From: Prorocentrum cordatum
Lineage: Eukaryota; Sar; Dinophyceae; Prorocentrales; Prorocentraceae
Assembly (NCBI GenBank): GCA_963575745.1
Contig: CAUYUJ010015953.1
Span: 28,501-92,500, forward strand
Reading direction: 5' to 3'
Length of the DNA stretch: 64,000 nucleotides
Position 1 is the stretch's first letter. Every line of letters begins with the position of its first letter. The notes under the pieces are model-generated. The model had not been told where the DNA came from, searched no databases, and saw nothing but the letters and a program-made list of their open reading frames with translations. A program made the translations under genes and the position numbers. Positions 152 through 49,698 of the stretch are shown one piece after another.

Positions 152-9043
<8,892 letters not shown>

Positions 9044-18455: not shown

Positions 18456-18463
18456 CGTTTCGC

Positions 18464-18477
18464 GTAACCCCACCAGC
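18464..18477 (+). repeat. Left 14-bp direct repeat of retroelement copy 1
   Basis: GTAACCCCACCAGC, identical to 21,472-21,485. Preceded by TTGACGTTTCGC, similar to the bases before the sites at 31,494 and 61,951. Confidence 0.75.
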
Positions 18478-20724: not shown

Positions 20725-20738
20725 GTAGCCCCACCAGC
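20725..20738 (+). repeat. Internal target-like site after an A-tail in copy 1
   Basis: GTAGCCCCACCAGC directly follows GCAGATCAAAAA. It differs by one base from the flanking repeats at 18,464 and 21,472, as expected if successive insertions used the same site. Confidence 0.5.
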
Positions 20739-21471: not shown

Positions 21472-21485
21472 GTAACCCCACCAGC
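21472..21485 (+). repeat. Right 14-bp direct repeat of retroelement copy 1
   Basis: GTAACCCCACCAGC, identical to 18,464-18,477, directly after the GACAAAAA tail. Confidence 0.75.
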
Positions 21486-29805: not shown

Positions 29806-29924
29806 TAACTCTATCTTTGGATGCATATCTTTGTGACGTTCAGAGCAGGAGAGGGCCCTCCGTTCCCATCCTGGCTCAAGCTCCCTGCTTCGCTTCCCTC
29901 CCTCCCCACTTTCACCAGTCAGGG
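29806..29924 (+). repeat. Split direct repeat A2
   Basis: TAACTCTATCTTTGGATGCA, TATCTTTGTGACGTTCAGAG, CAGGAGAGGGCCCTCCGTTC; matches A1 at the left end. B1 and A2 are contiguous, as in the circular-intermediate model of this class. Confidence 0.8.
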
Positions 29925-30162: not shown

Positions 30163-31493
30163 CGCTTCGCCATCCTCCTGGTACCGTCCTTTGGGGCACA
30201 CCCAGAAACTCCGAGATCCCTAGCCTGAGCAGCCTCGCGGGAGCGCCTGCTGCACGAGCCCACGCGCCGCGCGCGCAGCCTTCTGGGGCTCGCAGAAGGG
30301 GCGGGGACGAACCCCAGGGCATCCCCAGGGACCCAAAGGCAGTCGCGCCTCGCGCATCGCGGCTTGGGTTGGAGAGGCGCCCTTCTCTGGGGACGCCTCG
30401 CGAAGGCGCAGGGATGACCGCGCACCGCCAGGCGCGGTGCGCAAAGCTCGGCGACCTGAGAGCACGGCTGGAGGTGCACATCTCCTTTTTCCAAATTTGC
30501 CGTCCAGAGAGATGCTCTTCCGACCCGCTCCCTGACCCTCCCTCACAGGGCACGGGTCGCCTTCTCCCTGGCTGCCTGTTCGCACGGTCGTTTTCGCCCG
30601 CTCGTCTTCCAGGTGGGGTCGCCTTCTCCGGGGTCGTTTTCGCCGGGGTCGTCTTCGCCTGGGTCGTCTTCGCTGGGGTCGTCTTCGCCAGGGGTCGCCG
30701 TCGACAGGCGAAGGCGACCTTTCCCCTGACCACAACTTTTCTGGCCCCCTCTCTGTTGACCCGCCCACTGGCCCTACCCCTCTGGGTCGCCGACAGGGGG
30801 GGAGCGGCCCCGGGGGGAGGCATCGACCCCCAGTCCACCTAGGAACGCGCGGGTTCACTATCGAGGGCCCAGATCCATCCGCGATGCATCGCCGATTCCA
30901 GGTCAATGTTCCCTCCCTGAGCACCACCCCCTTTACGACTCTCCGAGCCCAGCGCTCGGTAGCCCCAACGCACCGCGCCGCCCCCCATTGGGGCTCCCGA
31001 GCGGTCCCAATTGCAGGTCAGGCGTTTCAAATTGCGTCATTGTTCGACGTGCTGGCGCAGCATCAGCACTTTGATGTTGTTTTGTTCACCGCGACGGCAC
31101 GTTCCCAGACCCCCGACGTCATGATTTGTTGTTAGAACGTCAGCCCCTAGGGGTCTCGACCCATTCCCCAGGACCGTTTTTGCATACCGAGCCGTCATTT
31201 GACAGTCCCGAGGCCTGGTTAGGGCCCCCAGAGGCCGAAACAGCGAAAAACCTTCCAGCGTGATTTTGTTCGTGACTCGAGGGGGTTTGAGGTCAGCGCT
31301 GCAGCATGTGCATGGGTTGTCAGCTGTGGTACGGTCGAGCATCTGATTAGTAAACCTCCTCACGAATTGCTGGACCAGCGGTTCTTGACAAACTTGCTGG
31401 AGCGTTGGCCCAGTTTCTTGAACACGCTCGTCCTTCCAGCGTGCACGCCAGAAATTAGTACATGTTTGGTTCAAGAATGCTTTGACACTTCGC
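30163..31493. other. Intergenic stretch with a short tandem repeat
   Basis: Holds one dispersed GC-rich repeat (about 30,395-30,455) and a tandem GGGTCGTCTTCGCC-type repeat of about 18 bp at 30,605-30,700. No gene is supported. It ends at the left direct repeat of copy 2. Confidence 0.45.
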
Positions 31494-31506
31494 GTATACC
31501 CACCAG
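31494..31506 (+). repeat. Left 13-bp direct repeat of retroelement copy 2
   Basis: GTATACCCACCAG, identical to 44,130-44,142. Preceded by TTTGACACTTCGC, like the other left sites. Confidence 0.8.
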
Positions 31507-31507
31507 T

Positions 31508-31771
31508 GAGTCGGGATGGGCCCTCACATGGCAGGCGGTGCGACGTCGGCTCAACAAAGCGGCCGACCGCCTCGCGACACTAGGGGTCTTTTGGGCCAGC
31601 GCCCTCAGACACGCCGGTGATCATGCGGTCACCACCTGGGTCGTGTGGGAAAACACCCATCGCTCCTCTCCTCCTCTCTTCCCCGCTGCCGGAGTCGACC
31701 TCTGCGACTTGGACCAGGTCGCCCTGTTCGTTGACGCTCTCGAAAACCCCCCTCCTCCTCATCTCCCCTGA
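31508..31771 (+). pseudogene. C-terminal remnant of an upstream ORF with an RNase H-like motif
   Basis: The frame is open from the insertion edge to TGA at 31,769-31,771. It begins SGWALTWQAVRRRLNKAADR and continues LATLGVFWASALRHAGDH, ending PPPPHLP. The NKAADRLA motif resembles the last conserved block of retroelement RNase H (N-x-AAD-x-LA). The frame ends 86 bases before the helicase ATG. I read it as the end of a longer, possibly RT/RNase H-containing ORF cut by 5' truncation. The motif is short, so this is tentative. Confidence 0.42.
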
Positions 31772-31809
31772 TCGTTCCCGGTCCGACACACTAAGGTCAC
31801 TACAGCCCG

Positions 31810-31831
31810 CAGCCTTCAGCTGCCTCCCTGG
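31810..31831 (+). promoter_or_regulatory. Recurrent CAGCCTTCAGCTGCCTCC motif between ORFs
   Basis: Lies 27 bases before the helicase ATG. Near copies occur at 39,353-39,371, 39,657-39,673 and about 39,944-39,960, after the second ORF. The pyrimidine-rich run ending in CAG resembles a splice acceptor, so it could be a trans-splicing signal, but this is speculative. Confidence 0.3.
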
Positions 31832-31857
31832 GTTACTACTGGACGCTCCTTGGGACC

Positions 31858-34800
31858 ATGCCCAAGAACAACCAAGGTCCCACCCGACGTTGGCCCTCGT
31901 GCCTGCCACACTGTGAGGACGGCCCGCCATTCAGATTGGGCACACGCGTTTTCCTTGCTCGGTACTGTCCCTGGATGCGTTGGGTTTTCTTTAACGGCGG
32001 GTGGCGCCACTGGTGCGAGATCTGCCAGGAGCCCGTGGATGACACTCAGCACATCCTAAGCGACAAGCACTACGACATGTCGCAAAAGCGCTACAGCGAC
32101 GGGTGGCCCGACCCAAACACCTTTGTCACCCCTGGGAATATGTGGAGCATGTGCAGTGGATCGACCTGGGACTCAAATCACCGTGTGCATATCGAGCGAA
32201 GGGCCTGGCCAGGCTGGAGGCCCGTCCAACCCTTGGTATCCCAAGACGGTGTACGCTCACTCCCTGGTCTCGTGATTCCGGAAGACGCGCTGCACGTGCC
32301 CACCACCTACCCTCTCTGGGACGACGAACCGACGTACAACTGCCCTGGAGGCACCAGATCCGACCCAGAACACGTGAGGTCGCACCAGATGGACACACGA
32401 GAGGCTAGGCGGACGGGCGTCAGACAGCCCGACGTTGGCGGAGGGGCCAACGCGCTAGCAAAATCGTCCGTCGGGTCACTGCCTGCCGCACCTGGGCAGC
32501 CCGCAGCCGCCTCGAGTGGACCTTTGCCTCCGCCCCCGCCGCCCCCCCCTCCGCCCGCCTGGGACCAGCCCAGCCAGCAGCGAAGAGTGATGCTGGCAAA
32601 GGAAGAAGATACATCACCAGCAGGCCCGTCGGAGCAGCAGACGGACGATTCGTTGGCACTCCCAGCGGCCGCCGACGTACTTAGTCTCTACTCTGTGCCC
32701 CTGGACTCTCCGCACTCCCGAGTCCACCCCAAGGCGGCGCTAGGGGACCTGCCCGAGGCCGTTCGGCTCCCCTCGCAGTGGCCTTACTCCCTCCAGGATC
32801 GTGGACAGACACTTCGGAGGATCGCCCGGGTAGAAAGCCAAGCGTCTGTCGAGACGGTGGACAACAGAAAAGACTCCACACGCGAAGACCTGGCCAGGAA
32901 AGGCAACTGCGCGCTCGACGTCCGCGTCACCAGGATCGACGCCAACTCGGACTGGGGCGACCTGGACACTTTCCAGTCGCGCAATGCGCTGGAGCTTCCA
33001 GAGGGTAAGGAACTCTACCTACTGGAGTGGCCCTCTAAGTACAAAGTGGCATCCAGGACCCAGGAGGGAGACAAAGAAGGCAAAGAACTGTACATTTCTG
33101 TCACCGGCCCCACAGTCGACAAAATTGCTGACGTCACGATCTGGTGGCCCCCCTCCCTGGGCGGTGCCATTCACCCAAGAGACGCCCAAGTGCTCGGCCC
33201 CAGCCCGGCCACCAGGCACCCTTCCGACAGATGCATAGTGCTGTACAACAGTGGAAAGTGGGGGCCATTCCACGAAGATGAAACCAAGGCGAAACGCCCC
33301 CCAAACGACGATGTTCCCTGGTACCGAGTGGACGAGGCCCCCTCCGACATCCAGTTCTGGCGCCAGTGTTGGGCTCTCGACCAGATCTACTACCTCCGGC
33401 AGAATGCCGCGGATCTGTTCGCCCGCGCACTGTCTCCCCTGACTTTCCTCTTAGCCTTCTTGCACGCCCCCCGGGCCGACCGACTTGCGGCCAACGACCT
33501 GCGGCGTACCAGCACAGTAGGCTCGAACCTGAGGGCCGGGGCCGCCGTCACCCAGGACTGCGACGTCCCCGACGCTGACCTCACTCAGGCTGTCCGAGGC
33601 GGCCTTCTGCAGCAGGCACCGCCGCTTCCCCTGGGTTTGACGGCATTCTCCGACGATGAGATCTCGGACGCGACGGGGTCGGTCTTCCAGAGGGTGCGCC
33701 CCACACCCAGTCTGGTGACTTTCCGCGAAAGGGTGGACAAACACAAGCCAAACAACGACGCGATCAGGGCCCTTCAGGCCACCTTGCATCACCACGCCGT
33801 ACTGGTGCACGGGCCCCCCGGGACAGGCAAGACCACCTTTTCCGTCGCCTGCCTGGACATGTGGGGATGCTGCCTACGTCCGGGACAAGCAGTCGCGTTG
33901 GCAGCCGGTTCGAACACGGCGGTAGACCAGCCCGCCCTGGCAATGTCCGAAGCGCATCAGCAGCGTCGTCTCGATCCCGACACGGGGTCCCCTGGGAAAT
34001 TCGTGCGCCTGGCAAGGAAGGAGCGTGTCAACGAGGGACTCGTGGACCTGACACCAGAGGGCCACTACAAGAACGCCCACGGAGAGTTCCCGTTCCAGGA
34101 CGGGGACAAGAGCCCGGACTTCACGCCCTACAAGGCTAGCCTGCTTCGAGATGCCAGGGAGATCATGTCCACACACGAGGCGGCCGAAGCCCTCGGACAG
34201 AAAGACAGTCCTCACATTGTCCTCCTGGTAATCGATGAAGCTGGGCAGGCCACGGAGCTTCCTGCGCTCATGTCTATGGTGAACTTGATCAACAGCGGCG
34301 GAGCCCTGGTACTGGTGGGCGACCCGAATCAGTTGCCCCCTACGGTTCTCTCCAAGCTTGCCAACGACCTGGGACTCTGTGTCAGCATATTTGACAGGAT
34401 GTTTCACGCACTCCGCGGCCAAGATACGGCTGCGGTCCACCTGTCGATCTGCTACCGCATGCATCCGCAGCTACTCGCCTTTCCGAACGCAGCCTACTAC
34501 GGCAAGAGTATGACGACTGGCATCATGGACCCGCTCAGGGACAGGCCCATCGTTGAAGGCACCCCATGGAGAGACATCACACCCTGGGAACCCGGGCGAC
34601 TGACTGAACTGGCCAACCTCACCGGTTCCAACGAGGCCGACCTTCGCGCGACCCTCAAGCAGTTGGATCCTCCGCAAAACGGAGACAAGCACCGTTTCCT
34701 GCTGGTCGACACACCCTCCTGGGAAGTAACGTCTAGCCTCCAGCCAGGCTACGCCAACCTCCCCGAGGCAGCGCAGGCCGTGGACATCGCGCGGACACTC

Positions 34801-36882
34801 TTGCCCGAGCTCGAAAAAGGCACCACCGTCAGAATCGTCGTTGGCTACCAGCTCCAGACGGCCATCCTCACGGACGGCTGGCCTCAAGGCCCCCGCCACC
34901 TCTGCGGTGTCCTGGGGAATTCAAAGGGTGGCAAGAAGGGGAAATCAGGCAAGGGAAAAGGCAGTGTTGTTCGCGGCGGACAAGACATCCCTGGCCCTGG
35001 AGCCGACCCCCAAGGGCACGCGGTGGACGATCACCGATGGGAAACCGTCTTTCGGGAGGACCATAACGCCCACACAGCCATCGGCGCTGCCTTCCCTGGA
35101 CTCAGGCAGGTTGCAGGAAAGCACATGAAGAGTGGGGCCCTCAAGCTCACCACCATCGACTCCAGCCAGGGTGGTGAGGCAGACATCGTAATCGCACTGA
35201 CCACCAGGAGCAACGGGAAGCACAATTGGGGCTTTGTCGACGACGCCAAACGCCTGAACGTGGCAATCACTAGGGCCAAGCGGAATATCCGGATGTTGGG
35301 AGACGGGCGCATGTTCGCCAATGCCACCTGGCCCCAGCTGCGTGTGCTCTCTGAGTACGGGCGCTTCACCCGCCTCTGGGTCCGATTCGGGGGCGGCGCA
35401 CCTGCTGGCCACAGGAGATCCCTGGTCATAGACGAGAGCTTTGACCCACTGCCCGACCTCGCCACCTGGGCACCGCCCCCCGTCGCCTGGAGCTGCGATG
35501 CAAAGGGAGAGGACGGGCGAAATGAGCTCGATGCGGCCAAGAGGAAAGCCCGCGACGCCCAGGCGAACGGCTTCGCCGAGCGCTACAACACTCCGCTGGC
35601 CGAGGACTTCGACTGGGACTCCCTGGGCAAGCTCGTCTCGGCCGGCCTCAACGAGATCCTCTCGACGCATGCCTTCCACGTGCTCATCTCTCTGGTGGCG
35701 GGGCTGCACCCGCACGAGCTTTCGCTGGCAGAAACACCGCGACAACCTGGCAGACTCGACCGCAAGGCCTGGTCGCACCTGGGCTTCCTGTTCGACATGT
35801 CCCTGGGTCTAGACGCGACCAATCTGGTCTACAACATGCTCTGGGCAGCCATTGTGTGGTCACTCGGCCTTGGCACTCCCTGGGAGGACGCAAACCGCGC
35901 AGTGCACGACGACTCCCTCCCCCCGGTGCCGCACGTCAAGGGACGGCGTGTAACGCTCTGTGGTCGACGCCAGTGCACCCCCAAGGGACTTTTTCGGCAG
36001 GTTCCCCAGGCGTGGAGTGCAGCAACCAAGGATTGCTGCAGACACAGGAAGCACCCTGGGATGGCTGGCCTACAGGAGATTCTCAGCGGCGCCCCCGACG
36101 ACCCAAAGTGGGACCAGTTCCGGAAGGGAATTAAAGACACAGATGGCCTCCCCATGGAATCCAGCAAAACCCAGTCGCTCTTGGTCGTCATGATGTTGAT
36201 GCTCCGCGAGCCACGTGTGTTCTTGTGGCCTTTCCCTCACGCAGAGCAGGCTGGGGATGTGATCGAAGCCATCCTGGGCTTCTGTGTCCCATGGCAAGAA
36301 GCGCACCGAGGGTTCCGGCACGACTTCGCAAGAACCTGGGGACTCACGCTGGACGACCTGGCCGACCTCCACGGCTGCATCGAGGCAATCCTGCCCCACA
36401 TCTCCAAGCTCGTAGCGGTGGCGCACCACCACCCGGACGCGCAGGCAGCTGGCTGCCCGCAGACCTGGAGTGAAATGGACCAGCAGGACTTTCAGCTGAA
36501 GGCGCCGATGCTCGTCCTCGAGAATATCGTCCCAGCCGCCTCCCTGGCCCCTCTGGGTACGCACCGCTGCTCGGTGTGCGCGCTTCACGTCGCGCTCGCG
36601 GGCTCAGACGCCTCCCTGGGTGACGACGGTCGGCGTGCGGGGCTCGCCTACATCGGCGGCGGATTCGCGCTATCCAACACCGAACTGAACGCCCCCTTGC
36701 CGTCCACCCCTGCCCCAGGCACCAAGCAGGACCCTCCACGCATTCCCGACGACAGGCTGACAGCCGAACAGAAATACGGCAGGTTCAAGTGCGACAGGTG
36801 CGGTAAGGACCAGCTACGCTCCACAGAGGGCACGTGGATATCCGACGACACACGCCTGATGGTAGCACAGAACCGGCCCTAG
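31858..36882 (+). CDS. UPF1-like superfamily 1 helicase encoded by the retroelement
   Basis: An uninterrupted ORF of 1,674 residues. A C-x2-C-x8-H-x5-H zinc-finger-like motif is at residues 53-71. The helicase core has Walker A GPPGTGKT (652-659), motif Ia-like SNTAVDQ (685-691), Walker B/motif II DEAGQ (793-797), GDPNQLPP (821-828), YRMHP (866-870), DSSQGGEADIVI (from 1101) and RLNVAITRAKR (from 1132), the full UPF1/SMUBP2/Senataxin-type set. A Lys/Gly-rich insert lies near 1020-1035. A CDRC pair (1645-1648) near the C terminus has its likely partner CETC just beyond the TAG. In-frame TAA at 31,792-31,794 limits the N terminus; ATG 31,858 is the first Met after it. Predicted to unwind RNA or DNA; a role in retrotransposition is inference. 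Confidence 0.85.
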   Translation: MPKNNQGPTRRWPSCLPHCEDGPPFRLGTRVFLARYCPWMRWVFFNGGWRHWCEICQEPVDDTQHILSDKHYDMSQKRYSDGWPDPNTFVTPGNMWSMCSGSTWDSNHRVHIERRAWPGWRPVQPLVSQDGVRSLPGLVIPEDALHVPTTYPLWDDEPTYNCPGGTRSDPEHVRSHQMDTREARRTGVRQPDVGGGANALAKSSVGSLPAAPGQPAAASSGPLPPPPPPPPPPAWDQPSQQRRVMLAKEEDTSPAGPSEQQTDDSLALPAAADVLSLYSVPLDSPHSRVHPKAALGDLPEAVRLPSQWPYSLQDRGQTLRRIARVESQASVETVDNRKDSTREDLARKGNCALDVRVTRIDANSDWGDLDTFQSRNALELPEGKELYLLEWPSKYKVASRTQEGDKEGKELYISVTGPTVDKIADVTIWWPPSLGGAIHPRDAQVLGPSPATRHPSDRCIVLYNSGKWGPFHEDETKAKRPPNDDVPWYRVDEAPSDIQFWRQCWALDQIYYLRQNAADLFARALSPLTFLLAFLHAPRADRLAANDLRRTSTVGSNLRAGAAVTQDCDVPDADLTQAVRGGLLQQAPPLPLGLTAFSDDEISDATGSVFQRVRPTPSLVTFRERVDKHKPNNDAIRALQATLHHHAVLVHGPPGTGKTTFSVACLDMWGCCLRPGQAVALAAGSNTAVDQPALAMSEAHQQRRLDPDTGSPGKFVRLARKERVNEGLVDLTPEGHYKNAHGEFPFQDGDKSPDFTPYKASLLRDAREIMSTHEAAEALGQKDSPHIVLLVIDEAGQATELPALMSMVNLINSGGALVLVGDPNQLPPTVLSKLANDLGLCVSIFDRMFHALRGQDTAAVHLSICYRMHPQLLAFPNAAYYGKSMTTGIMDPLRDRPIVEGTPWRDITPWEPGRLTELANLTGSNEADLRATLKQLDPPQNGDKHRFLLVDTPSWEVTSSLQPGYANLPEAAQAVDIARTLLPELEKGTTVRIVVGYQLQTAILTDGWPQGPRHLCGVLGNSKGGKKGKSGKGKGSVVRGGQDIPGPGADPQGHAVDDHRWETVFREDHNAHTAIGAAFPGLRQVAGKHMKSGALKLTTIDSSQGGEADIVIALTTRSNGKHNWGFVDDAKRLNVAITRAKRNIRMLGDGRMFANATWPQLRVLSEYGRFTRLWVRFGGGAPAGHRRSLVIDESFDPLPDLATWAPPPVAWSCDAKGEDGRNELDAAKRKARDAQANGFAERYNTPLAEDFDWDSLGKLVSAGLNEILSTHAFHVLISLVAGLHPHELSLAETPRQPGRLDRKAWSHLGFLFDMSLGLDATNLVYNMLWAAIVWSLGLGTPWEDANRAVHDDSLPPVPHVKGRRVTLCGRRQCTPKGLFRQVPQAWSAATKDCCRHRKHPGMAGLQEILSGAPDDPKWDQFRKGIKDTDGLPMESSKTQSLLVVMMLMLREPRVFLWPFPHAEQAGDVIEAILGFCVPWQEAHRGFRHDFARTWGLTLDDLADLHGCIEAILPHISKLVAVAHHHPDAQAAGCPQTWSEMDQQDFQLKAPMLVLENIVPAASLAPLGTHRCSVCALHVALAGSDASLGDDGRRAGLAYIGGGFALSNTELNAPLPSTPAPGTKQDPPRIPDDRLTAEQKYGRFKCDRCGKDQLRSTEGTWISDDTRLMVAQNRP

Positions 36883-39287
36883 GCCTACCTCGACGGTGCA
36901 AACATGGGGCGGCACTGCGAGACCTGCTGGATCCGACACCTGGAGGACCAGGGCATCCCAGCACCAACCGGCGCAACAGTAGCGGACAAGGTCAAGGAAC
37001 CGAGCAGCAGAGGATCGGTGCCGCAAGCGACAAAAAGGCGGATGCCCTCCCCTCCCTGAGTCACCTCCCACTTGGCTTTGGATGCAGCCCCCAGGCGGAC
37101 ACGAGATCGCTGTCGGACCTCATCATGACGCCGACGGGCATGCAGATCCCTGAGCGCGCCAACACCGCCATTCCCATCCTACGGGTCAGGGATGAGCGGT
37201 TCGGCCTCAAAGCTGCGGAGAACAAATTCTACTCCGCACGGTGCGACACATGCCCCCCGGGGGCACCGCTCCTCGTCTGGAACACCGGAGCACCTCCCCT
37301 GGGCTGCTCCATATGGAAACCAGCGGAGGGGGTAGGGGTTCCCGAGCAAGCTGGGCTGCCTCCCATCGAGCGGCGAGCCATAGCCTGGTGGGAGCGCAAC
37401 TGGAACGCCACTTGGTGCTGCCGGCGTTGCCTGGTCCCCGTATGGAACATCGGTCCTCCAACCCTGGACCACATCCTTGATAGAGACTACAGGGCGCTGT
37501 ACCCAGCCGAGGCCCCTGTCCTCCCAACGCTCAACAGCCAGATAGTAGCGGAGGTGCCAGTGGACATTTTCAGTTCCCTTCCATGGATAGGCGCTGACGC
37601 CAAGGCCCAAGATCGCTTCACCAAGGCTGGAGCGGCAAACCTCCCTGGGTCTAGCGCCTCGGGTGGAGCGGCCCCCGCGGCCGAGCAAGCCCCCAGGACT
37701 CTTGCACAGCTCATGGAACTCCTGCCAGAGCTGCCAGTCCCGCAGGGGCCGCTCCTGGACAGCAGGGACGTCAACGACCCCACGCTCAGCCCAGACGACC
37801 CCAGGAGCGGATCGGGCAGCGGAGACGTGGTTGTTCAGCGACTCCTGGTGACCTACCTCCGGGACTTCCACCCTGGACTGGACTACACTTGGCGACAGTT
37901 CTGTCACGGCCATCGCGATGGCAGCATCCCAGAGCCTAAAAACGAAGAAGCCTCCTGGCCAGTCGGACGGTTGACGGAGTTTCTCAGGACGGCGTACGGC
38001 GAATGCATCTCGAAGGACTGTTCCCCGCTCAACCAGCCCTGGGAAGGCAAACGGCTGGCCGCCGCGCGGGTCGTCTCCCACCTCACCAACGGCGACAAGC
38101 ACAAGGAGTCCTGGGAGAAGCACGCCTTGGCCCTCGCCCCGGCGAGTGGCTTCAACCCCGTCAGACACGAGATGGGCACGCTGACGAGTTTCCTACTCAG
38201 CCTCAGCGCCGACGCGCTAGCCTCGGCAACCATCACCTCCCCTGCCGAGTCGCACGTGCAGACAATGAGCGAGGACAGACCAAACACCTCTACTGCGGCC
38301 GGTGCAGACAACCCCTTGGGTACGAAAGACGACGACACGCGCCTTGGCAACCCGAATGCGCGTGACCACGCTGCCAAAGACGAGGACGGCGAAGACGAAA
38401 TCCCTCCTACTGAAAAAGCAGATTCAGCCGACTATGGGGGCCCCCAAGAGTCTCCTCCTCCTGGATCCTGCACGGGCTCGGCCACGGAAGTCGACGACGA
38501 TGGCCCCGGCGACAAGGCGCCTCAGCAGAGCCCAACGGCAGACAGCATGGAACCCAGCTCCGACCGCGACCCGATAGCCGCCTGGGGTGGCCCAGCCAAC
38601 ACCGACCAAAACGCCGGTGGGACCAGGGGACCAGATCACGACGAAGCTGCCCGAGACAGGGGTGATGCGCAGGGTCGTCGCCCCCCATTACGTAACCCAC
38701 AGGCACCTGGCCATAGGCTTTCCTACTCTCGATCAGCGGAGCGACACACACTCAACCAGCTGACCGACGCCTATGGAGGCCCCATGTACAAGGCCTGGTT
38801 GGGCTCCGTGGACTTGGAGCGCCGCGGAGAGCCGCCCGCCAAGCGCATCACCAGACACCAAACGGAGTTGGGTGGAGTATTCTGTGCTCTGTGGACGGCC
38901 TACACACAAGGCATTCGGCCCCCTGGGTCCAGGGAACCCAAGTCAGACCCGAGGCTGCACTCGGACGCGACAATCAACAAGTTTTTAGATGACTGGAAGG
39001 GTTGCGGATACAACGCCTACTTGATGGACAGGAGGTTCAACTTCCGCATCGATTGGGCAACAGTGCGGGCCGAGTACCTGCGCCACACCTGGCCCGACGG
39101 CACGGGCAAGGGCAACCACCAGCAGAGCAGCTGGCGCGAGCGGGCGACTAGCTCCTGGGACGCCTGGGACACCTGGCAGAGTGACTGGAGCGCTGGCTGG
39201 CACGACGACCGTTGGCAGTCAGGAGGCAAGCGTGGCGGCGGCAGGCCAGACGAACGTGGGGAAAGAAGGCAACGATGGGGCGACTGA
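36834..39287 (+). CDS. Second ORF of the retroelement: Cys-pair motifs and Trp/Arg/Gly-rich tail
   Basis: Overlaps the end of the helicase ORF in another frame and ends TGA 39,285-39,287. From ATG 36,834 it would be 817 residues, but the first ~80 residues may be a shadow; ATG 37,126 is a later option. CDTC (residues 137-140) and CRRC (196-199), each in a Trp/Pro-rich context, could bind zinc. The middle is acidic, low complexity and Pro/Asp/Glu-rich. The C terminus has FLDDW...GYNAYLMD...FRIDW (from 717), then a Trp-rich segment and KRGGGRPDERGERRQRWGD. Copies at 18,478 and 45,810 share these parts. The basic Gly-rich tail suggests nucleic-acid binding, perhaps as the element's RNA-binding protein. 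No database family recognised. Confidence 0.7.
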   Translation: MDIRRHTPDGSTEPALGLPRRCKHGAALRDLLDPTPGGPGHPSTNRRNSSGQGQGTEQQRIGAASDKKADALPSLSHLPLGFGCSPQADTRSLSDLIMTPTGMQIPERANTAIPILRVRDERFGLKAAENKFYSARCDTCPPGAPLLVWNTGAPPLGCSIWKPAEGVGVPEQAGLPPIERRAIAWWERNWNATWCCRRCLVPVWNIGPPTLDHILDRDYRALYPAEAPVLPTLNSQIVAEVPVDIFSSLPWIGADAKAQDRFTKAGAANLPGSSASGGAAPAAEQAPRTLAQLMELLPELPVPQGPLLDSRDVNDPTLSPDDPRSGSGSGDVVVQRLLVTYLRDFHPGLDYTWRQFCHGHRDGSIPEPKNEEASWPVGRLTEFLRTAYGECISKDCSPLNQPWEGKRLAAARVVSHLTNGDKHKESWEKHALALAPASGFNPVRHEMGTLTSFLLSLSADALASATITSPAESHVQTMSEDRPNTSTAAGADNPLGTKDDDTRLGNPNARDHAAKDEDGEDEIPPTEKADSADYGGPQESPPPGSCTGSATEVDDDGPGDKAPQQSPTADSMEPSSDRDPIAAWGGPANTDQNAGGTRGPDHDEAARDRGDAQGRRPPLRNPQAPGHRLSYSRSAERHTLNQLTDAYGGPMYKAWLGSVDLERRGEPPAKRITRHQTELGGVFCALWTAYTQGIRPPGSREPKSDPRLHSDATINKFLDDWKGCGYNAYLMDRRFNFRIDWATVRAEYLRHTWPDGTGKGNHQQSSWRERATSSWDAWDTWQSDWSAGWHDDRWQSGGKRGGGRPDERGERRQRWGD

Positions 39288-39289
39288 GC

Positions 39290-40928
39290 TCCCCTCCCAC
39301 CCATCCCATCACCTAGAGTGACAGGTATATCGACCGTGCTTCACACTTCGCGCAGCCTTCAGCTGCCTCCCGGTGCTCTCTCAACCCGTGTGGCAGCCGT
39401 GCTGCCGCCCTCCCTGGTACACGCACTTCCTGCTTTTGGACCCAAGTGTGTCGACCAGCAATACCATCTGCATTGCAGCACGGGGGAGTGCTGCGTGCAG
39501 ACCCTAGTTGGCCCCTGGCCCCGCTGTAGTTGTTCTCACTTCTGGCCCGGGCGGATCCCGTCCCCGGCCGCGCGGCTTCGTGACCGACGGAAGTGCTCCG
39601 CCGCGTCTCAGTCCTGAGTCGCGCTCTCAATCCCTGGGATTCTCTCTCAAGAACAGCAGCCTTCAGCTGCTCCTCAGACACCATACTCGTTTGGCGGCAT
39701 CCCGCCGCCCTCCCTGGTACTTGCACTTCCTGCCTTTGGACCCAAGTGTGTGTACCAGTAATACCGTCTGCATTGCAACACCACGTGTTGCGCGTGGTCA
39801 TAGCGGCCCCAGGCCCCGCTGTAGCTGGTTTCACCTTGCCAGGCTCGCCCCGGCCCGCGGCTCTGCGACCGACGCAATGATAGCTTCGCCTCGTCACGCC
39901 CAGAGCCGCGCTCTTACTCCCTGGGTTTCCCCAAGATACTACGGCCTTCAGCCGCGCTTCTCCACTTTCCCTGGGAGCGACTCTGGGCTTGGACTCATCG
40001 TCAGTGGGTCTTAACGTTGTTCAGACGGTCTTGTGACGTGGGCCCCCCCGCTGCGCCGGCGGAATGCCCACCCGGTCCGCTGCGGCCGCACTCGGACTGA
40101 GTCGCAGGCGTGCCCCCGCACATGACTTACCACAGTCTTGCAGCGGTTGGCCCAGGCGTGCTACCCCAGTGGCTAGTGGTGCACCGCTCGCCGCGAGGAT
40201 CTGTGCGCACTGACGTCACCCCATCGTCGCTCCCACGCTCAACCTGGTTGAGCGGCCACTCCCTGGGCCTCTTCGCGACTACGGATTGCTTGTGCTGCAG
40301 TGAGCATGCGGCAGCGCAGCTTTCTCAGAGCGCTTTTCCTTTTTCTGGCCCTTCAGCGTGGATGGAGAGCCGCTCTTTGTTATGTCACTTAGTTGCTTCC
40401 TGGCACACGCCCCGTCACCCTCGATTGGCCGACGTGTCTCTCGCCGAGGTCGGGAGCAGGTGTACCCCTGCACTGCGTCACATCATGTCTGATCTTTCGC
40501 GCGCAGTCGCATTCCTCCGCAGTTGTTCTGAGGTTGACTCCAGTTGTCCATGACTTTGCGGCGTTCTCTGAAGCTGCGACGGTTCGCTGGCGCTGTCAGA
40601 GACCCTTCTCCCTGCTGGACGACGTCAGCTCGTTTGCCTACAGTCTCGCTCATACCCGACAGACACCCTGGGCTCTCTGACACCCCTCATGCACGGAGAG
40701 TGATCCCCACTACCTCGTGTTTGTCGGACCGACACGATCCATGACTGGGGATGTGCGTCGCGCCATTTTGGCAGCGTCCTCCCTGCTTCCTGGGTGGCTG
40801 TTTCCCTCCAGACTCCCTGGGCAGCAGCTTGCACCGCCGCCTGATCCGCGGCCCCCACGCGCGCCCGGCGAAGTCGTCACGGCCGCAGCCCGGCCGTGAC
40901 CCGCCGCCGCTGGCGCTTCCGCCTGCGG

Positions 40929-40930
<2 letters not shown>
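39290..40930 (+). repeat. 3' region of copy 2 with two ~300-bp repeats
   Basis: Two related units (about 39,350-39,600 and 39,655-39,905) share CAGCCTTCAGCTGC, CCGCCCTCCCTGGTAC, CACTTCCTGC-TTTGGACCC and AATACC-TCTGCATTGCA. No protein is supported. The region ends with a terminus like that of copy 1. Confidence 0.65.
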
Positions 40931-40931
<1 letters not shown>

Positions 40932-41007
<76 letters not shown>

Positions 41008-41064
41008 CACACAAAACAAACAAACAACAAACAACAAAGACAAAAACAAAAACAAAAACAAAAA

Positions 41065-41125
<61 letters not shown>
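40932..41125 (+). repeat. (TA)n, CAAAA-rich run and 60-nt poly(A)
   Basis: (TA)n at about 40,931-41,006, then AACA/CAAAAA repeats, then an uninterrupted run of A at 41,066-41,125. It follows an element-terminus-like sequence, so it may be an expanded tail. Confidence 0.9.
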
Positions 41126-41126
<1 letters not shown>

Positions 41127-41128
<2 letters not shown>

Positions 41129-41147
41129 CGTAGCCCCTTGGCTCAAG
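41127..41147 (+). other. Spliced-leader-like sequence directly after poly(A)
   Basis: T + CCGTAGCC + CC + TTGGCTCAAG. The dinoflagellate spliced leader has CCGTAGCC and TTGGCTCAAG at its ends with ATT in between, so only the middle differs (two bases instead of three). It is not followed by a GT donor, so it is not an SL RNA gene; it looks like the 5' end of a reverse-transcribed trans-spliced RNA. Confidence 0.6.
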
Positions 41148-41249
41148 CCGTCTCGGCTCGAGCACGCCCCGGGCCCAGGCACGCGCCCGCCCGGCCTGCC
41201 GCGTTGGCCTCGGCGCCCGGCGCCGCCCTGCTGCTGCGCCGCCGCGGCC

Positions 41250-41560
41250 GCCCCCCCCGGAGGCTGGCGCGCGCGCAGCGGCTGGCGGCGGTGGCGCCGC
41301 GGACCTGGCTGCCGCCGCCCGCGGCGGGCCGCCTGGCCTGGGCCCGCGCCCGGCGGCCGTTGCTGCTGCTGCCGACGCCGCCGCCTCCCCCTTGGAGGCT
41401 GGCGTGCGCGCGGCGGCGGGCGGACCTGGCTGCCGCGGACTGGGCCCGCCCCCAGCGGCTGCTGCTGCCGCCGCCGCTGCCGCCCCCCCCTGGAGGCTGG
41501 AACGCGCGCGGCGGCGGGCGGCGGTGGCGCCGCGGACCTCCTGGCTTGGGCTTGCTGGGT
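41250..41560. repeat. GC-rich repeat, three imperfect copies
   Basis: CCCC-GGAGGCTGG-(C/A)GCGCGCG units at about 41,255, 41,388 and 41,488, with CTGCTGCCG-rich spacers. Confidence 0.6.
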
Positions 41561-41819
41561 TTTTTCCTGCTTTTGGCAGCTCCCTTTATCTCCTTGGTCG
41601 CCTCTCCACCATCCTTCTGATTGGTTGCCCTCTGGGCCCCGCCTCGTCTGTCGTCTCCTTCGGCCGTCGTGTCCACCGCCCGCTTCATGCCGCTGCGGCT
41701 GTTTGTTGCGCTGGCGTGGATCTGGCCGTGGCTCCCCTCCCTTCTGGCCACTTCACCCAGCTCGTGGTCGTCTGCGGCATTCGGCTACCCCCCCGTTCGC
41801 CGCCCCCAGGCAGAGCTTC

Positions 41820-43430
41820 AGCATGTCTCAGGCGAAATTTACCATTTCCCATTTTCCTGCGGCTGTTAGCTGCACCCTACCAGAGCACCGGGACGTCTCT
41901 TGCGTAGCAAACGCGAAGTAATTCCCCACCACATTGCGGCTGTCAGCTGCACTCCAGCCAGGTCTCGGGTTGTCTCTGGTGTTATACGTTCCCCCCGCTC
42001 TGCGGTTCCGTGCTGCACCCCAGCTGGGCTTCGTCACGTATCACGTGGTACCACTACCCAGCATCCTGCGGCCGGTTGTTGCACCCCTACCTTATACGCA
42101 GGCTCGGCCCGTACCCCCCGGGCTGCGCGTCTCAGGCGAAGCTATATCCCCCTTCCTGCGGCTGTTAGCTGCACCCTACCAGAGGACCTCTATGTCTCAG
42201 GCGTTGCAATCATCCAACGTTCTGCGGCTGTTAGCTGCACTCCGGCTCAGGTTGCCCCAGGTGGCACCGTCGCCCTTCACTCTGTTGCTGCTAACTTCAC
42301 CCCCTCGGTCGCCTGCCCATATCAGGCGTAACATGTCTCAGGCGAAGGTAACCATCTCCCACATTCCTGCGGCTGTTAGGTGCACCCTACCAGAGAACTA
42401 GGATGTCTCAGGCGAAGCATTCGCGGTGCCTCCCCCATCTCACTGCAGCTGTTTGCTGCGCCCCTGCCTAGTTTCGGGATGTATCAGGTGTATTATTTTC
42501 CCTTCGCCATGCGGTTGTTAGCTGCACCCCTGCTTGGCGTAGACACTGTCTCAGGCGGGTTCACCTCCCCGCATTTTGCGGCTGTTACCTGCACCCCCAT
42601 CCATCTTGGCAGGCGCGGCCGTTCCCCCCAGGCTGCATGTCTCAGGCGAAACAATAATGTCTCACCTTCCTGCGGCTGTTGGCTGCACCCTACCAGAGTA
42701 CCATTTCAGGCGTAACATGTCTTTGGCGAAGTTTACCTTTTTCACCCTTTTCCCGCAGCTGTTAGCTGCCCCCTACCAGAGAACTAGGCGATAGCCTTTT
42801 TCCCATTTTCCTGCGGTTGTTAGCTGCACCCTACCAGTTCGCCAGCACTTCTCAGGCGAAGTTCTCCCCAATCACACCGCGGCTGTCAGCTGCACTCCGG
42901 TCGGGCTGCGACTTGTCTCAGGTGTAACCTCTTCCCATCATTCTTGCGGCTGTCAGCTGCACCCCAGCAATACATCGGCATGTCTCAGGCGAAGATAACC
43001 ATTTCCAAATTTCCTGCGGCTGTTAGCTGCACCCTACCAGTAGACCAGCACGTTTCAGGCGAAGTTCTCCCCAATCACACCGCGGCGGTCAGCTGCATTC
43101 CGGTCGTGCATCGGCGTGTCTCAGGCGTAACCTTTTCTCATCATTTGCGGCTGTTAGCTGCACCCCAGCAAGGCATCGGCTCGTCTCAGGCGGGAGTTAC
43201 CTTGAATCCTGCTGCTATCAGCTGCACCCCAGCTGACCTGGCAGGCGCGACCCGCACCCCCCAGCCCGCCCCTGCTTCTCATGCCCTTCCTCGGCGGCTG
43301 TACTTCTCAGGCGGTACGTATCAGGCGGAATTTCTTCCCACCTTCCCGCGGCTGTTAGCTGCACCCTACCAGAGAGCTGCATGTCCCAGGCGATGCAATC
43401 CCCCATCGCTCTGCGGCTGATAGCCGGGCT
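41820..43430. repeat. Tandem repeat of about 70 bp around GCGGCTGTTAGCTGCACCC
   Basis: About 18 units, each with TCCTGCGGCTGTTAGCTGCA, CCCTACCAG, and a TCTCAGGCG(AAG) segment. Open frames across it are periodic artefacts. Confidence 0.85.
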
Positions 43431-44095
43431 GGCGCCAGGCTGCTCGTAGGCGGACTTGGCGCGTGCACCCACCTTCCTTCGGCTTCAACGGCTTCCCCCC
43501 CGAAGGTAATCCAGCTCCTGGCAACTGTCTGCTACCTCTCTCTGACGGGCCCCCTCACCTTTTGGCCCCCCCGGGGCTCGAGGGGTGGGAGGCTCCCCGC
43601 ATTATTTCGCCATTGCGCTGGCCCTGGAGATGGCCTGGGGTACTGCATGACCTTCAGCAAGGGAGCTCCTGCGCTACCACTTGCACCTGCCGCCGTTGGT
43701 ACCTCGGTTCCGTGGTCTCCTTGCTTCTCCACGGCACCGCATCCGACTGGATTAGTTTCGGGCCATGCTGCCTACTTTCGACGAGTACAGGTAGTTCTGC
43801 AAGGTGCAAACCATTTTCTACGTGTTCCACTTCCGAGCTGCGGCTTAGCTCTTCCCGTTCTCTGGCCCCGTTCTTCTCTTCCTCTGTTGTCCGCTCTTTC
43901 GCCTTCTTCCTCTGCTGCGCCTCTCGCCGCCGCTCCTTTGCTTTTGCCCCTCTTCCCCTGTTTCTTTCGTTCGCCCTCGCCCCTGCCACGTTACCGCTGT
44001 GCTCCGCGAAATAGTTATCGCCACCATCGTGGCCCTTTTCCGCGCCTCGCCTGCGACAGCACCGGCTTGCGTTCTTCTCACGACCTCTTGACGCC
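43431..44095. other. Non-coding end of copy 2
   Basis: Unique GC-rich sequence with a pyrimidine-rich part at 43,850-43,990. A 183-codon frame (43,463-44,014) has no motif and is Ser/Phe/Leu-biased by composition, so it is not called. Confidence 0.45.
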
Positions 44096-44129
44096 GCGCG
44101 GGCGCCCGCCTGCGGTCGCGATCAAAAAA

Positions 44130-44142
44130 GTATACCCACCAG
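44130..44142 (+). repeat. Right 13-bp direct repeat of retroelement copy 2
   Basis: GTATACCCACCAG, identical to 31,494-31,506, directly after GATCAAAAAA. Confidence 0.8.
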
Positions 44143-45179: not shown

Positions 45180-45650
45180 GAGGTTCTTGAAGGAAGGCTA
45201 TCTTAGGGGTTCTCTTGGGGTCCCCGTGGGGCCTCTTGGAGTTCATTGGAGGGGTCTGGGAGGCCGTTTGGGCACCATGGTTCGAGGGACGTTGATCAAC
45301 TCGGGTAACCCCACCAGAGGCTCAAACATTTAGTTTTGGTGCCATCTTGGGCCGCTTTGGGGGCGTTGTTGGGGCCCTCTTCGGGCCCTCTTGGGCCCCT
45401 CTTGGGCCTCTCTTGTGCCGTCATGGGGCCATCTTGGGGCCTCGAAAGCTCCATCGGATGCGAAAAAAAGCGAAAAGGCAAAAAAACAGTAATTGTTTGT
45501 AGGTTTCTGGGCCATTTGGGCCTCTTGGGGGGAGGGGGTCCTCGGAGGGCTCGGCGAGCACTGGACGGAGGCTATCTTGAGTCGTCTTGAAGTATCTTGA
45601 CCCATCTTGAGGACCATCTTGGACTCGCGGAGGCCTTCTTGGAGCCGTAT
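45180..45650. repeat. TTGGGG-CC minisatellite with a target-like site and A-rich core
   Basis: G-rich units on both sides of GTAACCCCACCAG (45,305-45,317) and an A-rich core at about 45,455-45,520. Confidence 0.75.
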
Positions 45651-45809: not shown

Positions 45810-48432
45810 ATGCCTGTCTGCGCAACGCGTGCCCTTCCAGGGCTGTGTCCGACGCCCTTACCCACGGCCCTGACGCCCCTGGACCAGCTACTGGTCCCAC
45901 TGGAAGGCGACCTGAACCCCCTCAATGTCGGAACCACCCTCCCAACCAGCATCACGAACGATGACCGCCTGGTCAGCCAATTCTACAAGGGGAATGTCGG
46001 CATCTGGAGATGTGACGGATGCCCCTCGGGCACGGAGGGGCACAGGTGGGGACCAGGACAGGCCTACCCAGGCATGTACGGCCCCGCCGCGGATCCAGAA
46101 GGACTCCGCGACGGCTTCAACCTGGTCCACGGGCTCCCCCCCCCCGTACAGCTGATGAGGGAGATGTTCCTGGCCAAGCGCTGGCACGCGGGCTGGTACT
46201 GCAAGGAATGCCTTATCCACCAAGGGGACATGTCCCCATCAGCCGTGAGCGAGGTACTCAGCAAATACGGCCCTGACGTATACCCAAGAGCAGGGGACAA
46301 ACCTCTCCCCGCGCTACCGGGCATCCCCGCCTCAACGGCAGAGGGCGCAGCACGCCCCAGCCCAGAGGAGACGCGGCGACGCGCAGCCGCCTGGGACGAG
46401 GCTGAGCGCAGCTACTACGACCGCCACGCCTCTGCACTGCCACCCCCCTTCTGGGATCCCGACGCCGCTGCCTCCGCCCAGCCACCCACTGGAAGCGCAA
46501 CAGCCAGCGGGGCTCAGCAGAACACCAACCCACGGGCGGGCGTGCGCCCCGAGCAGACACCCAGCCCAGTCCAGTCAGCAAGGCCCACCAAGGAAAGGCG
46601 CGTGACACCAGTCCAGTCAACCAGCCCCCGCCCAACACCCACCAAACCGCCCACTAACGGAGGCGATTCACCCATTACCCCTTCACTTCCACCCACACCG
46701 CGTGGCGACGAGCCGACCCCAGCCCAGCGGGCCACACGACCCACGGCCACCACGTCCGGCGGGGCGCCGCCACCCGTCGGCCCGTCACCTGAACCCCTCG
46801 GGAGGTGTGCAGAACACGGCAGCCACGAAGTGCAGCAGGGGCAGGTCCCGGACACGCCCATCTTGGGATCCTTGTGCCCAGCTGCCACGGACAACCAATG
46901 CATCCAGTGCGGCGACTAACCCGGATACGTGGTCATCAGGGGTGACTCCCTTCACCGCGCCAGGTGGTTCAGCACTGCGGACTGCACCGAGCCCCTCACG
47001 ACACAGCCCCTGGATGAAGCCGTCTTCGGACCCGTCCTCCGCATCATGACCCGGGAGCAGGACGCGCGGACGCTGCTCGTCCAGATCGGCTGCGAGAGGC
47101 TGGAAGTGCGAGGCGTCGGCGACAGGACGCTACGCGTAAACGTCCTCCGTGGAGACGCAGCGCTCCGCGCAGCTACCTTTCTGGAGAGTGCCCAAGGCAA
47201 GGTACACAGAAAGCAAGCAACAGCGGTCCTCGACAACCCCTCGAGAGGCGTCGACACCACGGGAGACAAAGCGGCGTCCGCAGGACACATGCAGGACAGG
47301 CCCCAGCCTGAGCCCTACCCGCCGCAATCCAGCACACAGGACCCCACCTACGAACCTGCACCCCTCATGCCCCTGTAAGGAAGAGGACCCTGACTGGGGC
47401 AACGAAGACCAGGCTAAAGAGGAGTAAATGCGCCTCGCCGAGGCCCTGAGCGAGGTCCACCCCGTCTCTTCGTCCTCTGACTCGGGCACAGTTGAAGAGC
47501 ACCAAGCCAAGACGAGTCCGCAGAGCGAGCGGAACACCAGCCCCGAAATCGACCCCCGCAGTACCGACCAGAGGGCTGCCCGCGCACCCGCCGAGCCAAT
47601 CCTGCGTCCCGAGGCCGTGGCCGACGGTCGGGACCTGCACATGCGGGACCGCTCCAGGGGCCCGGAGGACCCACGACCTGCCCTCACCCCTCTCTCTGCG
47701 CACCTCCCAGAGCGCCCGCGCGGCAGGGTGCGGGAACCAGTCGCCTGGGAGCTGTACACGACGGCGGCGAGGCGCAAGTCCAGAGAGGACGACCGGCCAC
47801 GCGCAGGAGAGCGAGACCGCGACCGCGACCGCAATCTGAGCGCGTCGGGGGCACCGTGGCGCAGACACGACGCCAAGGATTGGGACAGAACTAAGGAGCG
47901 CTATCGGGACCAGACCCACGACACTGGCCGGGGCTCAGGTAGCGCACCCTGGCGCCAGCCAGAATCGCGCAGCTCTCACTACAAAGACGACCGCAGCCAC
48001 ACCGACACCAGCCGGACACACGCCACCTTCCGCGTCGGATGGCAGCGCCTCCCAAACCAGACAGCACTAATACACATGAAGAGGTTGAAAACAGAAGGGG
48101 GCTACCACTTTAACGTAGCCTGGCATTCGTGGTGCAGGCACATGTACAAGGAGCAGGGCAAGGGCAAATCCAAAGACCAGGCGCCCTTCGACCCACGCCG
48201 CTGGCAGCAGTGGATCATCGACAAATTCCTGGATGACATGAACGCCAACAACTACCACGTGGACCGATGGCCCAGCAGCGCAGGTGTCTACGTGGATTGG
48301 GAGCGGGAGCAGAAGCTCTATCAGGAGGTGCAGAGGAAAAGGGAGGTCGCTAAGGGTGACGGGCGCGACGGGGATCAAGCCCGCAGTTCCGGGTACCACG
48401 ACACCTGGACTGGAAAGCGCCCGCGGCGCTGA
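45810..48432 (+). pseudogene. Broken third copy of the Cys-pair / Trp-Arg-Gly ORF
   Basis: Paralog of 36,834-39,287. The first part reads DQLLVPLEGDLNPLN...RCDGCP...WYCKECL, parallel to DLIMTPTG...RCDTCP...WCCRRCL in copy 2. In-frame TAA at 46,917-46,919 follows a further Cys-rich part (CPAATDNQCIQCGD). Frame 3 continues (TLLVQIGCERLEVRGVGD) to 47,378; the reading then shifts to frame 1, crosses TAA at 47,425-47,427, and ends with IIDKFLDDMNANNYHVDRW...VYVDW and KRPRR at 48,432. So one long ORF is broken by two stops and a frameshift. No helicase precedes it; it may be 5'-truncated. Confidence 0.65.
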
Positions 48433-49698
48433 CTGTCGTCGGCCCTACCACACCTGCCCCACAGCACCACTGCATAACTTGACAGCCACTCCCACTACCT
48501 GCGCCCCCGTCCCCGATCCACACACCCACCTGACACCCGACTGGAGACCGCGTGTCCCTCTCCCCCCCCTTACATGCACCCTCTCGCCCTTGTGGCGCCC
48601 GCGTTCCCAGTGCTGGCTACCCACCCTTCCACCTGGACCCCGTCCTCTCCTCCTTCTCCCCTCCTTCTCTCCCGTTTCCAAAGGTTTTGGGACTCTGTGT
48701 CCTACCTGTACCCATCGGCCGATTGAGATTCAAAGACCTGGGAGTCTGTGTCCCCCATGTACCCATTGGCTGTTTCCAAAGGATCTGGGACTCTGTGTCC
48801 TACCTGCGCCCATCGGCTGATCGTGATTCGAGGATCTGGGACTCTGTGCCCCCCCTGTACCCATCGGCTGAACGAGATTCAAGGATCTGGGACTCTGTGT
48901 CCCCCCAGTACCCACCTGCGACGCTTTGGTGCGCCAGCGACGTGCGTGACACTCCCGCGCTGGGGCCTCGGGTCTTACCTGTACGCATTGGGGCGTGTCC
49001 CCACGTGAGCACCTCGGCGCATGCTGGCGGGACTCCAGCTGGCGTGGGACGCTGGCCTCTCTCCCCCCTGTTCGCTTCTTCCCTCCCCGCTCGCTTTCCC
49101 CCCCTCCCACGGCGGCGGCACCCGGCACAGCGCGGCTCCGGCCCGGTGCTGGCACTGCACCTTGCCGCCTCGGCGGCCCCGCTCACCCTGGGCAGCGCGG
49201 CCCAGGCCCGGCCCGCGGCAGGCGGACACAGACGGCCCTTCAGGCCGAACCTCTTGGCTGCTACCTGGACGTGGATTGGACTACCAGCCCAGGCCGCCAC
49301 CGACCACCCGGTGGCACAACGTTGCACATCGCCTTCGTGGTACTCCTCATCTCCTGGGCCTCGCCTTACCACTTGGTGGCACCTGGTGCACTTCGCCGAC
49401 CTGGTCTTCCTCTACCTCACGGGCGTCGACCTGGTCACGGCCCTCCCCACGCAGCACTCGAGGATGGTGATTCTGACGCGCCGTTGACGGCAACACCACT
49501 TCACTCTCCCACCGGGACTTCGCCTCCGGCTGCTGTCCAAGGCATACTTTTTCCTACGCAAGCTCTTCGGCACCGCCTGCACCCCGCGCCCTCCGGCCGC
49601 CCAAGGCCCCGCCCGCCCGCGCCCTGTCTCCCCAATAAGTGCTTTGCGCGCCCCGCCTAGCTCGCAACCGGAAGAGGCCCGCTCTCGACCCGCCGACC
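48433..49698 (+). repeat. 3' region of copy 3 with a ~57-bp tandem repeat and A-rich end
   Basis: About five units at 48,678-48,915 with ATCTGGGACTCTGTGTCC and TACCCATCGGCTG. The region ends about 49,698 at CCGCCGACCAAAAA, similar to the CGCGAYCAAAAA ends of copies 1 and 2. No flanking direct repeat was found for this copy. Confidence 0.5.

Follow-up and report, generated by a model that had tools for sequence, protein, structure and literature searches.

Superfamily 1 (SF1) helicases have been described in long interspersed nuclear elements (LINEs) of insects. In the TRAS/R1 and Jockey LINEs the helicase constitutes the C-terminal domain of the protein encoded by the second open reading frame (ORF2) and is tobamovirus-like (Lazareva 2015, PMC4686597), the zinc-binding and helicase layout has been compared with that of Upf1 (Morozov 2017, PMC5563155), and insect LINEs with viral SF1 helicases are also reported elsewhere (PMC6338049). 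SymbioLINE-Dnmt, a dinoflagellate LINE, encodes a cytosine methyltransferase in an ORF upstream of the reverse transcriptase (RT) ORF, which indicates that dinoflagellate LINEs take up large enzymes; the word helicase does not occur in the main text of that report (de Mendoza 2018, PMC5890265). In the current analysis we have considered a 64-kb stretch of the genome of the dinoflagellate Prorocentrum cordatum (contig CAUYUJ010015953.1), referred to as the window. The region 31507-44129 of this window, called insertion 1, very probably represents one integration event of a large target-specific retrotransposon family of the type lacking long terminal repeats (non-LTR), in which an RT ORF is followed by an ORF for a UPF1-like helicase.

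Insertion 1 is bounded by two identical copies (13/13) of the 13-mer GTATACCCACCAG, as had been predicted from the sequence, and this 13-mer is absent elsewhere in the window on both strands. Chance alone could yield one 13-bp repeat in 64 kb. The present repeat is considered to be more than chance since homology to RT proteins begins at the left edge, a run of six A (A6) ending at 44129 directly precedes the right copy, and a word of which the 13-mer is one variant recurs seven times. The long non-coding region at the 3' side, noted earlier, contains short ORFs only. The A-rich end noted with it is present as A6, but the main A-run (A60, 41066-41125), which is the only run of A or T of at least 20 in the window, is internal.

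Immediately inside the left repeat one frame stays open for 262 bases, forming an 87-codon tail with its stop at 31769-31771. The codon score of this tail is 0.20, as compared with 0.29 for the first helicase ORF, and is reached by 25 of 675 control windows (3.7%). A search with the 87 residues has identified three proteins from 121 candidates (E-value up to 10), with E-values of 9.6e-15, 8.4e-14 and 2.0e-13. These relatives (P0125, P0126 and P0127, with 1791, 1815 and 1735 residues) all carry RVT_1 (E-values 1.4e-6 to 3.7e-6; 27.2-28.6 bits, the cut-off being 29.6) and have a layout of an endonuclease-like region, an RT with YVDD, a Cys/His cluster and an RNase H-like domain. This order is that of LINEs with RNase H. 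The profile of the relatives matches R2 at 2e-6 and 2v0s ('LR1'), which we take to be an L1-type endonuclease, at 0.015. Exo_endo_phos_2 (5e-4 and 3.2e-4) and RVT_3 (0.0019 and 0.25) are each recognised in two of the three relatives under the Pfam cut-off, and P0126 holds QETHW, GGDVN, SQIDA and LSDHA, presumably the motifs of an apurinic-type endonuclease. Upstream of the junction no RT homology has been detected: of 200 shuffles, 62 (P0125), 176 (P0126) and 108 (P0127) attain the local score of this reading. As the homology starts at the junction and the upstream reading scores like shuffles, the element is taken to be 5'-truncated within the RT ORF at 31507; the RT domain itself, removed by the truncation, lies outside the window copy and only the tail is present. 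A polycistronic, 5'-truncated non-LTR element with an upstream RT ORF, as put forward in the original prediction, is supported by this tail, whose relatives are all RT proteins, and by the relatives of the element with other 5' ends in the window.

The ORF that follows (P0001) encodes 1674 residues and contains all seven motifs of the SF1/UPF1 type that were sought. Pfam families AAA_11 (1.6e-23, 84 bits) and AAA_12 (2.1e-27, 96 bits) have been assigned to it, and its best sequence match of solved structure is UPF1 (2xzo, 1.9e-24). A search for relatives, in which 7991 candidates were scored and 175 passed, has revealed P0003 (2541 residues) as the sole whole-query relative among the best 120 of these 175, with 50% identity over all of this ORF; the others of the 120 cover at most 23%. 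P0003 carries the same seven motifs, its start is aligned with that of the window helicase, and it is colinear with both window ORFs as a single unbroken ORF. Since P0003 continues unbroken into the second ORF, 31858-39287 is regarded as one polyprotein ORF, split in the window copy by an in-frame stop (36880-36882) and, near 37,000, by a frameshift. The ORF of 1,674 codons was thus predicted correctly in its length and its motifs but is not intact, and the supposed overlapping second ORF is not a separate one: 31858-36882 and 36834-39287 are pieces of the same ORF. P0123, an NCBI protein of Prorocentrum cordatum, also reads across this joint, with an identity of 74% over 10% of the product of the 36834-39287 ORF (P0002); it was the only match among 7993 candidates in a search whose length limits left out whole-length relatives such as P0003. 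The helicase has been conserved in a second lineage. The GC content of the window, 61%, is close to the 59.7% reported for P. cordatum (PMC10666404).

In a tree of helicases (70 of 121 rows kept, span 350-1100 residues, rows labelled from database names) the window protein pairs with P0003 on a separate long branch with a support of 100, outside the UPF1, SEN1, SDE3, SMUBP2 and Dna2 rows present. The window helicase is not among the UPF1 rows, the tree setting it apart from the UPF1 relatives P0005 and P0006. The two proteins join P0109 (support 84) on the side of SEN1 under midpoint rooting, a root that the program warns may be false, and their deep place is unsure because P0109 is itself a very long branch. 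PF09416, presumably the UPF1 zinc-binding domain, and PF18141 are both listed for P0005 and P0006 and are absent from the Pfam matches of P0001 (PF09416 at E-values up to 1). The structure model of the helicase is close to IGHMBP2, UPF1, Sen1 and others. By Foldseek E-value Sen1 ranks first, followed by Dna2 and UPF1; by Z the order is IGHMBP2, UPF1; in a viral structure library an SDE3-like giant-virus helicase ranks first. As the best match differs among these three comparisons, the fold leaves the subfamily unassigned. Viral_helicase1 scores 19.4 bits in P0001, under the cut-off of 21, and 24.4 bits in P0003, over it; the Pfam scores lean against a tobamovirus-like helicase, with the reservation that P0003 passes. 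The N-terminal 600 residues, modelled from two sequences, had a confidence (pLDDT, predicted local distance difference test) of 29, and this model was discarded.

The word GTANNCCCACCAG is found seven times in the window, always on the + strand, as against 0.02 occurrences expected, and the 25-base form TTNACNNTTCGCGTANNCCCACCAG occurs at 18452, 31482 and 61939 (three matches, none expected). The site at 31482 borders insertion 1. The site at 18452 is followed by element 3, whose alignment with P0003 has a score of 99 that is reached by none of 500 shuffles, and by the stacked element 4, with duplication copies agreeing at 12/13 (20725) and 13/13 (21472) positions. Such stacking would be expected if one preserved target had been hit by insertions repeatedly. 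No family element has been recognised behind the 61939 word up to the window end, and this site may be an empty target. The 3' ends are A-rich or of simple-repeat type, A6, A5 and A5 being present at three of them in addition to the (TA)n/A60 tail. Element 2 is recognised through its last ORF, the score of which is reached by 3 of 500 shuffles against P0002 and by none of 500 against P0003. The window holds three relatives of the polyprotein (insertion 1, element 2 and element 3), differing in length and divergence. Their 5' ends vary as anticipated: insertion 1 begins in the RT tail, whereas the start of element 3 falls within the final module of the helicase ORF. A rightward extension of the target is only suggestive: 11 of 17 bases are common to the two joined sites (1.3 per 1000 random pairs), as compared with 8 of 17 with the third site (56 per 1000), and taking the 20725 copy lowers the count to 6 of 17.

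The word TTNAC...CCACCAG is unlikely to be something other than an endonuclease target, whether a host feature (for instance a 3' splice site, or a coding stretch [LF]T[LF]RV.PPA that is repeated) or a portion of the element itself. It does resemble a branch point with a 3' splice site, and the three long-form sites at 31482, 18452 and 61939 read LTLRVYPP, LTFRVTPP and FTLRVSPP in one frame, with A as the next residue of the right flank, whether joined or continuous; a repeated coding stretch may be what is targeted. However, the word joins different positions of the element on its right and unlike sequences on its left, and its variable bases are alike in the outer copies of one insertion (TA/TA; AC/AC, the middle copy at 20725 having GC) and unlike between insertions. 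A host feature could itself be the target of insertion. Two further observations concern the word and its surroundings: GTAACCCCACCAG is present at 45305-45317 without the usual left half and with no A-run in front, as a decayed or variant target, and an 84-bp tandem repeat (18039-18447) stops a few bases before the word at 18452.

Insertion 1 looks like a composite of two RNAs, the helicase element (A) up to about 40,935 with its A-tail, followed by a leader-headed RNA B. The end of element 4 is similar to the end of A at ~40,935 (27 bases, 89% identity, BLASTN E-value 6.6e-5) and to the end of B at 44,129 (37 columns, 81%, 8e-4), the E-values referring to this small piece-to-piece comparison. 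The likeness sits at the very end of each unit, and 3'-end scores over windows are 22 and 19 against shuffle maxima of 14 to 18 (10 shuffles). With an element-4-type 3' end at 40,935, a single RNA extending up to 44129 is less likely. Directly behind A60 lies the leader-like TCCGTAGCC-CCTTGGCTCAAG, with a score of 15 against the dinoflagellate spliced leader (DinoSL, sequence from PMC6050394), the best of 2132 windows of 60 bp. No target copy is present between the A60 tail and RNA B. A template jump would account for the A60/leader junction, as would a tandem pre-existing in the source locus. A second spliced-leader-like stretch, TCCGTTCCCATCCTGGCTCAAG at 29859-29880, is 18/22 like DinoSL and is possibly a retrogene relic. 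The strand of the repeats in B is uninformative because the repeat is near-palindromic, and RNA structure has been rejected as an account of these repeats, their region folding no better than shuffles. The 3' region of element 2 (48674-48914) has GGGAC...GTCCC repeats, an array as in B with another unit.

On the proposed mechanism, the full element would comprise an unseen 5' part, an ORF with endonuclease-like, RT and RNase H-like domains, the 86-bp spacer, the helicase ORF, and a 3' untranslated region (UTR) with an A-rich tail. The helicase ORF of the full element would have about 2,500 codons, with the UPF1-like SF1 core between zinc-finger-like ends. The endonuclease is predicted to cut the bottom strand at TTGACRYTTCGC^GTA; the RT would copy the RNA from its 3' tail by priming at the target, the top strand would be cut 13 bases further on, and copying would usually stop early. 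In insertion 1, RNA B would have been copied first to its leader-like 5' end, whereupon the RT may have switched to the helicase RNA at its A-tail, continuing to 31507; such a jump is suggested by the A60/leader junction, together with a single outer duplication and the lack of one in between. It is probable that the helicase accompanies the RNA and would unwind this long GC-rich molecule for the RT or for translation, or protect it. We also propose, as a possibility somewhat short of an even one, a new giant lineage of target-specific LINEs in which the UPF1-like ORF of about 2,500 codons is the regular second gene behind the RT throughout dinoflagellates, and which also mobilises short leader-headed partner RNAs having its 3' end, joined by template jumping.

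That the RT and the helicase belong to separate elements joined once, for example by a template jump between the RNA of an RT element and an unrelated helicase RNA, is rather improbable. Insertion 1 has one two-RNA junction, A60/leader, so jumps may occur, and P0003, the one whole-length relative among the matches listed, is on a 15.6-kb contig while the RT relatives are on contigs of 19.8, 6.9 and 21.3 kb. Against this, the joint is flanked by a natural RT stop on one side and a conserved helicase start on the other; it has an 86-bp spacer and, unlike the A60/leader junction, lacks an A-tail. Moreover element 3, which holds the terminal module of this polyprotein, shares its GATCA5 ending with insertion 1. 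Still less probable is the retrocopy of an ordinary host or viral mRNA, in which a UPF1-like transcript was inserted by the machinery of another LINE. The duplication, A-tail and 5' truncation would suit any LINE-mobilised RNA, and retrogenes bearing spliced-leader relics are abundant in dinoflagellates (PMC6050394). But the end of the RT ORF precedes the helicase ORF in the same RNA, further truncated relatives of the polyprotein are found in the window, and the helicase falls outside the UPF1, SEN1, SDE3, SMUBP2 and Dna2 rows present in the 70-row tree. A Helitron or other helicase-bearing DNA transposon, though it too would be a mobile element with a large helicase ORF, is hardly conceivable in view of the target duplication, the A-tail, the UPF1-like core, the absence of Rep and Pif1 families among the Pfam matches of P0001 and P0002, and the RT tail, which excludes it unless the tail is a nested relic. 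Helitrons have a Pif1-like helicase with Rep and make no target duplication.

Several observations weigh against the proposed RT-helicase element. The RT and the helicase are joined on one molecule solely through the 87-codon tail of insertion 1, and no full-length copy has been seen. The endonuclease and RNase H matches of the RT relatives are below the curated Pfam cut-offs and RVT_1 is just below; a single RT relative compared with the PDB ranked a chance match (a monooxygenase, 0.036) above R2 (0.059). The target words were defined from these very sites, and target specificity rests on two occupied sites and one apparently unoccupied. Element 2 is without a clear duplication. The 3' ends that had been expected to be shared are alike in A, B and element 4, but that of element 3 has just GATCAAAAA in common with B and lacks the hairpin-like end. 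The leader match of 15 is barely above the match at 29,859 (14) and the shuffles (maxima 10 to 14, n=10), and its weight for this reason rests on its place. The fold of 42600-43420, which covers the B repeats, is no stabler than 20 shuffles (z -0.22) and gives no support for an unusual structure.

Table 1. Positions of the insertions, target words and coding regions in the window
Feature	Position	Strand	Remarks
Second occupied target word; left duplication 18464-18476 (GTAACCCCACCAG)	18452-18476	+	Long-form match
Element 3, 5'-truncated relative from polyprotein C-terminal module, with 3' UTR; ends GATCAAAAA	18477-20724	+	
GTAGCCCCACCAG behind element 3, 12/13 like left copy	20725-20737	+	
Element 4, short non-coding 734-bp unit stacked behind element 3; ends GCGACAAAAA with A5	20738-21471	+	3' end like A and B
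GTAACCCCACCAG, identical to 18464-18476	21472-21484	+	
Target word TTGACACTTCGCGTATACCCACCAG, left of insertion 1	31482-31506	+	Long-form match
Left duplication copy, insertion 1	31494-31506	+	Last 13 bases of target word 31482-31506
3' end of RT ORF (C-terminal tail, end of RNase H-like domain) and stop	31507-31771	+	Three RT proteins match from codon 31508, best E 9.6e-15
Spacer between RT ORF and helicase ORF, 86 bp	31772-31857	+	
Helicase polyprotein, first piece	31858-36882	+	N-terminal C2H2-like finger, UPF1-like SF1 core, start of C-terminal part; premature stop
SF1 helicase motifs, GPPGTGKT to LNVAITRAKRN	33811-35286	+	Motif scan; structure model
Mechanical ORF, remainder of polyprotein	36834-39287	+	Homology from ~37,002; Cys pairs, C-terminal module
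3' UTR of helicase element (A), ending in hairpin-like sequence common to two other 3' ends	39288-40935	+	
Tail: (TA)n, A-rich, then 60 A	40936-41125	+	
Putative RNA B: spliced-leader-like start 41127-41147, no long ORF, 11 GCGGCTGTTAGCTGC-type repeats, element-4-like 3' end, A6	41126-44129	+	
Right duplication copy, insertion 1	44130-44142	+	Identical 13-mer, 13/13
Element 2, diverged broken relative of polyprotein C-terminal third, edges approximate	45810-48432	+	Homology
Third target word TTCACGCTTCGCGTATCCCCACCAG, single copy	61939-61963	+	Long-form match

Scans of the window with Rfam and for tRNA genes gave nothing. No relative was found in IMG/VR with P0001, the target word, the RT alignment or the helicase alignment, nor in GTDB with the RT alignment, and the other window ORFs scanned (seven and P0124 in one set, ten in another) have no Pfam family at or above the cut-off. 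An ORF of 657 residues (58284-60257) with weak C2H2 finger matches under the cut-off and coding-like codon use at 59161-60243 may derive from a different element. An open frame of 335 codons (62995-64000), starting some 1 kb behind the 61939 word, runs off the window end; it has no Pfam match at the cut-off and may represent either a gene or an element's first ORF. Around 240 consecutive copies of GTA are present at 7945-8664.

The combination of an RT ORF with a separate, huge ORF for a UPF1-like helicase is absent from the literature found, the nearest systems being the insect LINEs in which an SF1 helicase of viral type forms part of ORF2 by fusion. Searches of the literature in PubMed Central (PMC), with subscription journals and preprints mostly outside their range, turned up no LINE with a UPF1-like helicase ORF; the original prediction that no retrotransposon of this content has been described holds to that extent, but gives way for viral-type SF1 helicases, which are described in insect LINEs (PMC4686597, PMC5563155, PMC6338049). 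Like those elements, the element of the window would combine a non-LTR retrotransposon with an SF1 helicase. It differs in that its helicase, instead of being fused to ORF2, would occupy a separate ORF of about 2,500 codons with its own start behind the RT stop, in an alga, and has Pfam matches of the UPF1 family, the insect helicases being tobamovirus-like. With SymbioLINE-Dnmt it has in common that a dinoflagellate LINE is associated with a large accessory enzyme gene, which is a methyltransferase upstream of the RT in that element and a helicase downstream of the RT in the present one. From UPF1, IGHMBP2, SEN1 and Dna2 the window helicase is distinguished by its own long branch, by having no match to PF09416 or PF18141 and by its own zinc-finger-like ends.

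TRAS elements are target-specific, and the site-specific LINEs with an apurinic-type (APE-type) endonuclease (R1, TRAS and SART) resemble the window element in recurrent insertion at one word in one orientation and in stacking within one target; the target of the window element differs in being a dispersed word of about 25 bp. RNA B is a candidate for a dinoflagellate spliced-leader retrocopy, with its leader-like start (score 15 against DinoSL) behind A60 and A6 at 44129. Retroposition is considered one cause of the growth of dinoflagellate genomes in a review (PMC11453091). The target word, the common 3' ends and the A60/leader junction provide handles on how, and by which enzyme, dinoflagellate retroposition is carried out. 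Among host proteins, MOV10 is UPF1-like. This RNA helicase of the host restricts LINE1 (PMC3475670). An element with a UPF1-like helicase of its own would reverse the relation between MOV10 and LINE1, and makes it testable whether a helicase assists the RT on very long GC-rich RNA.

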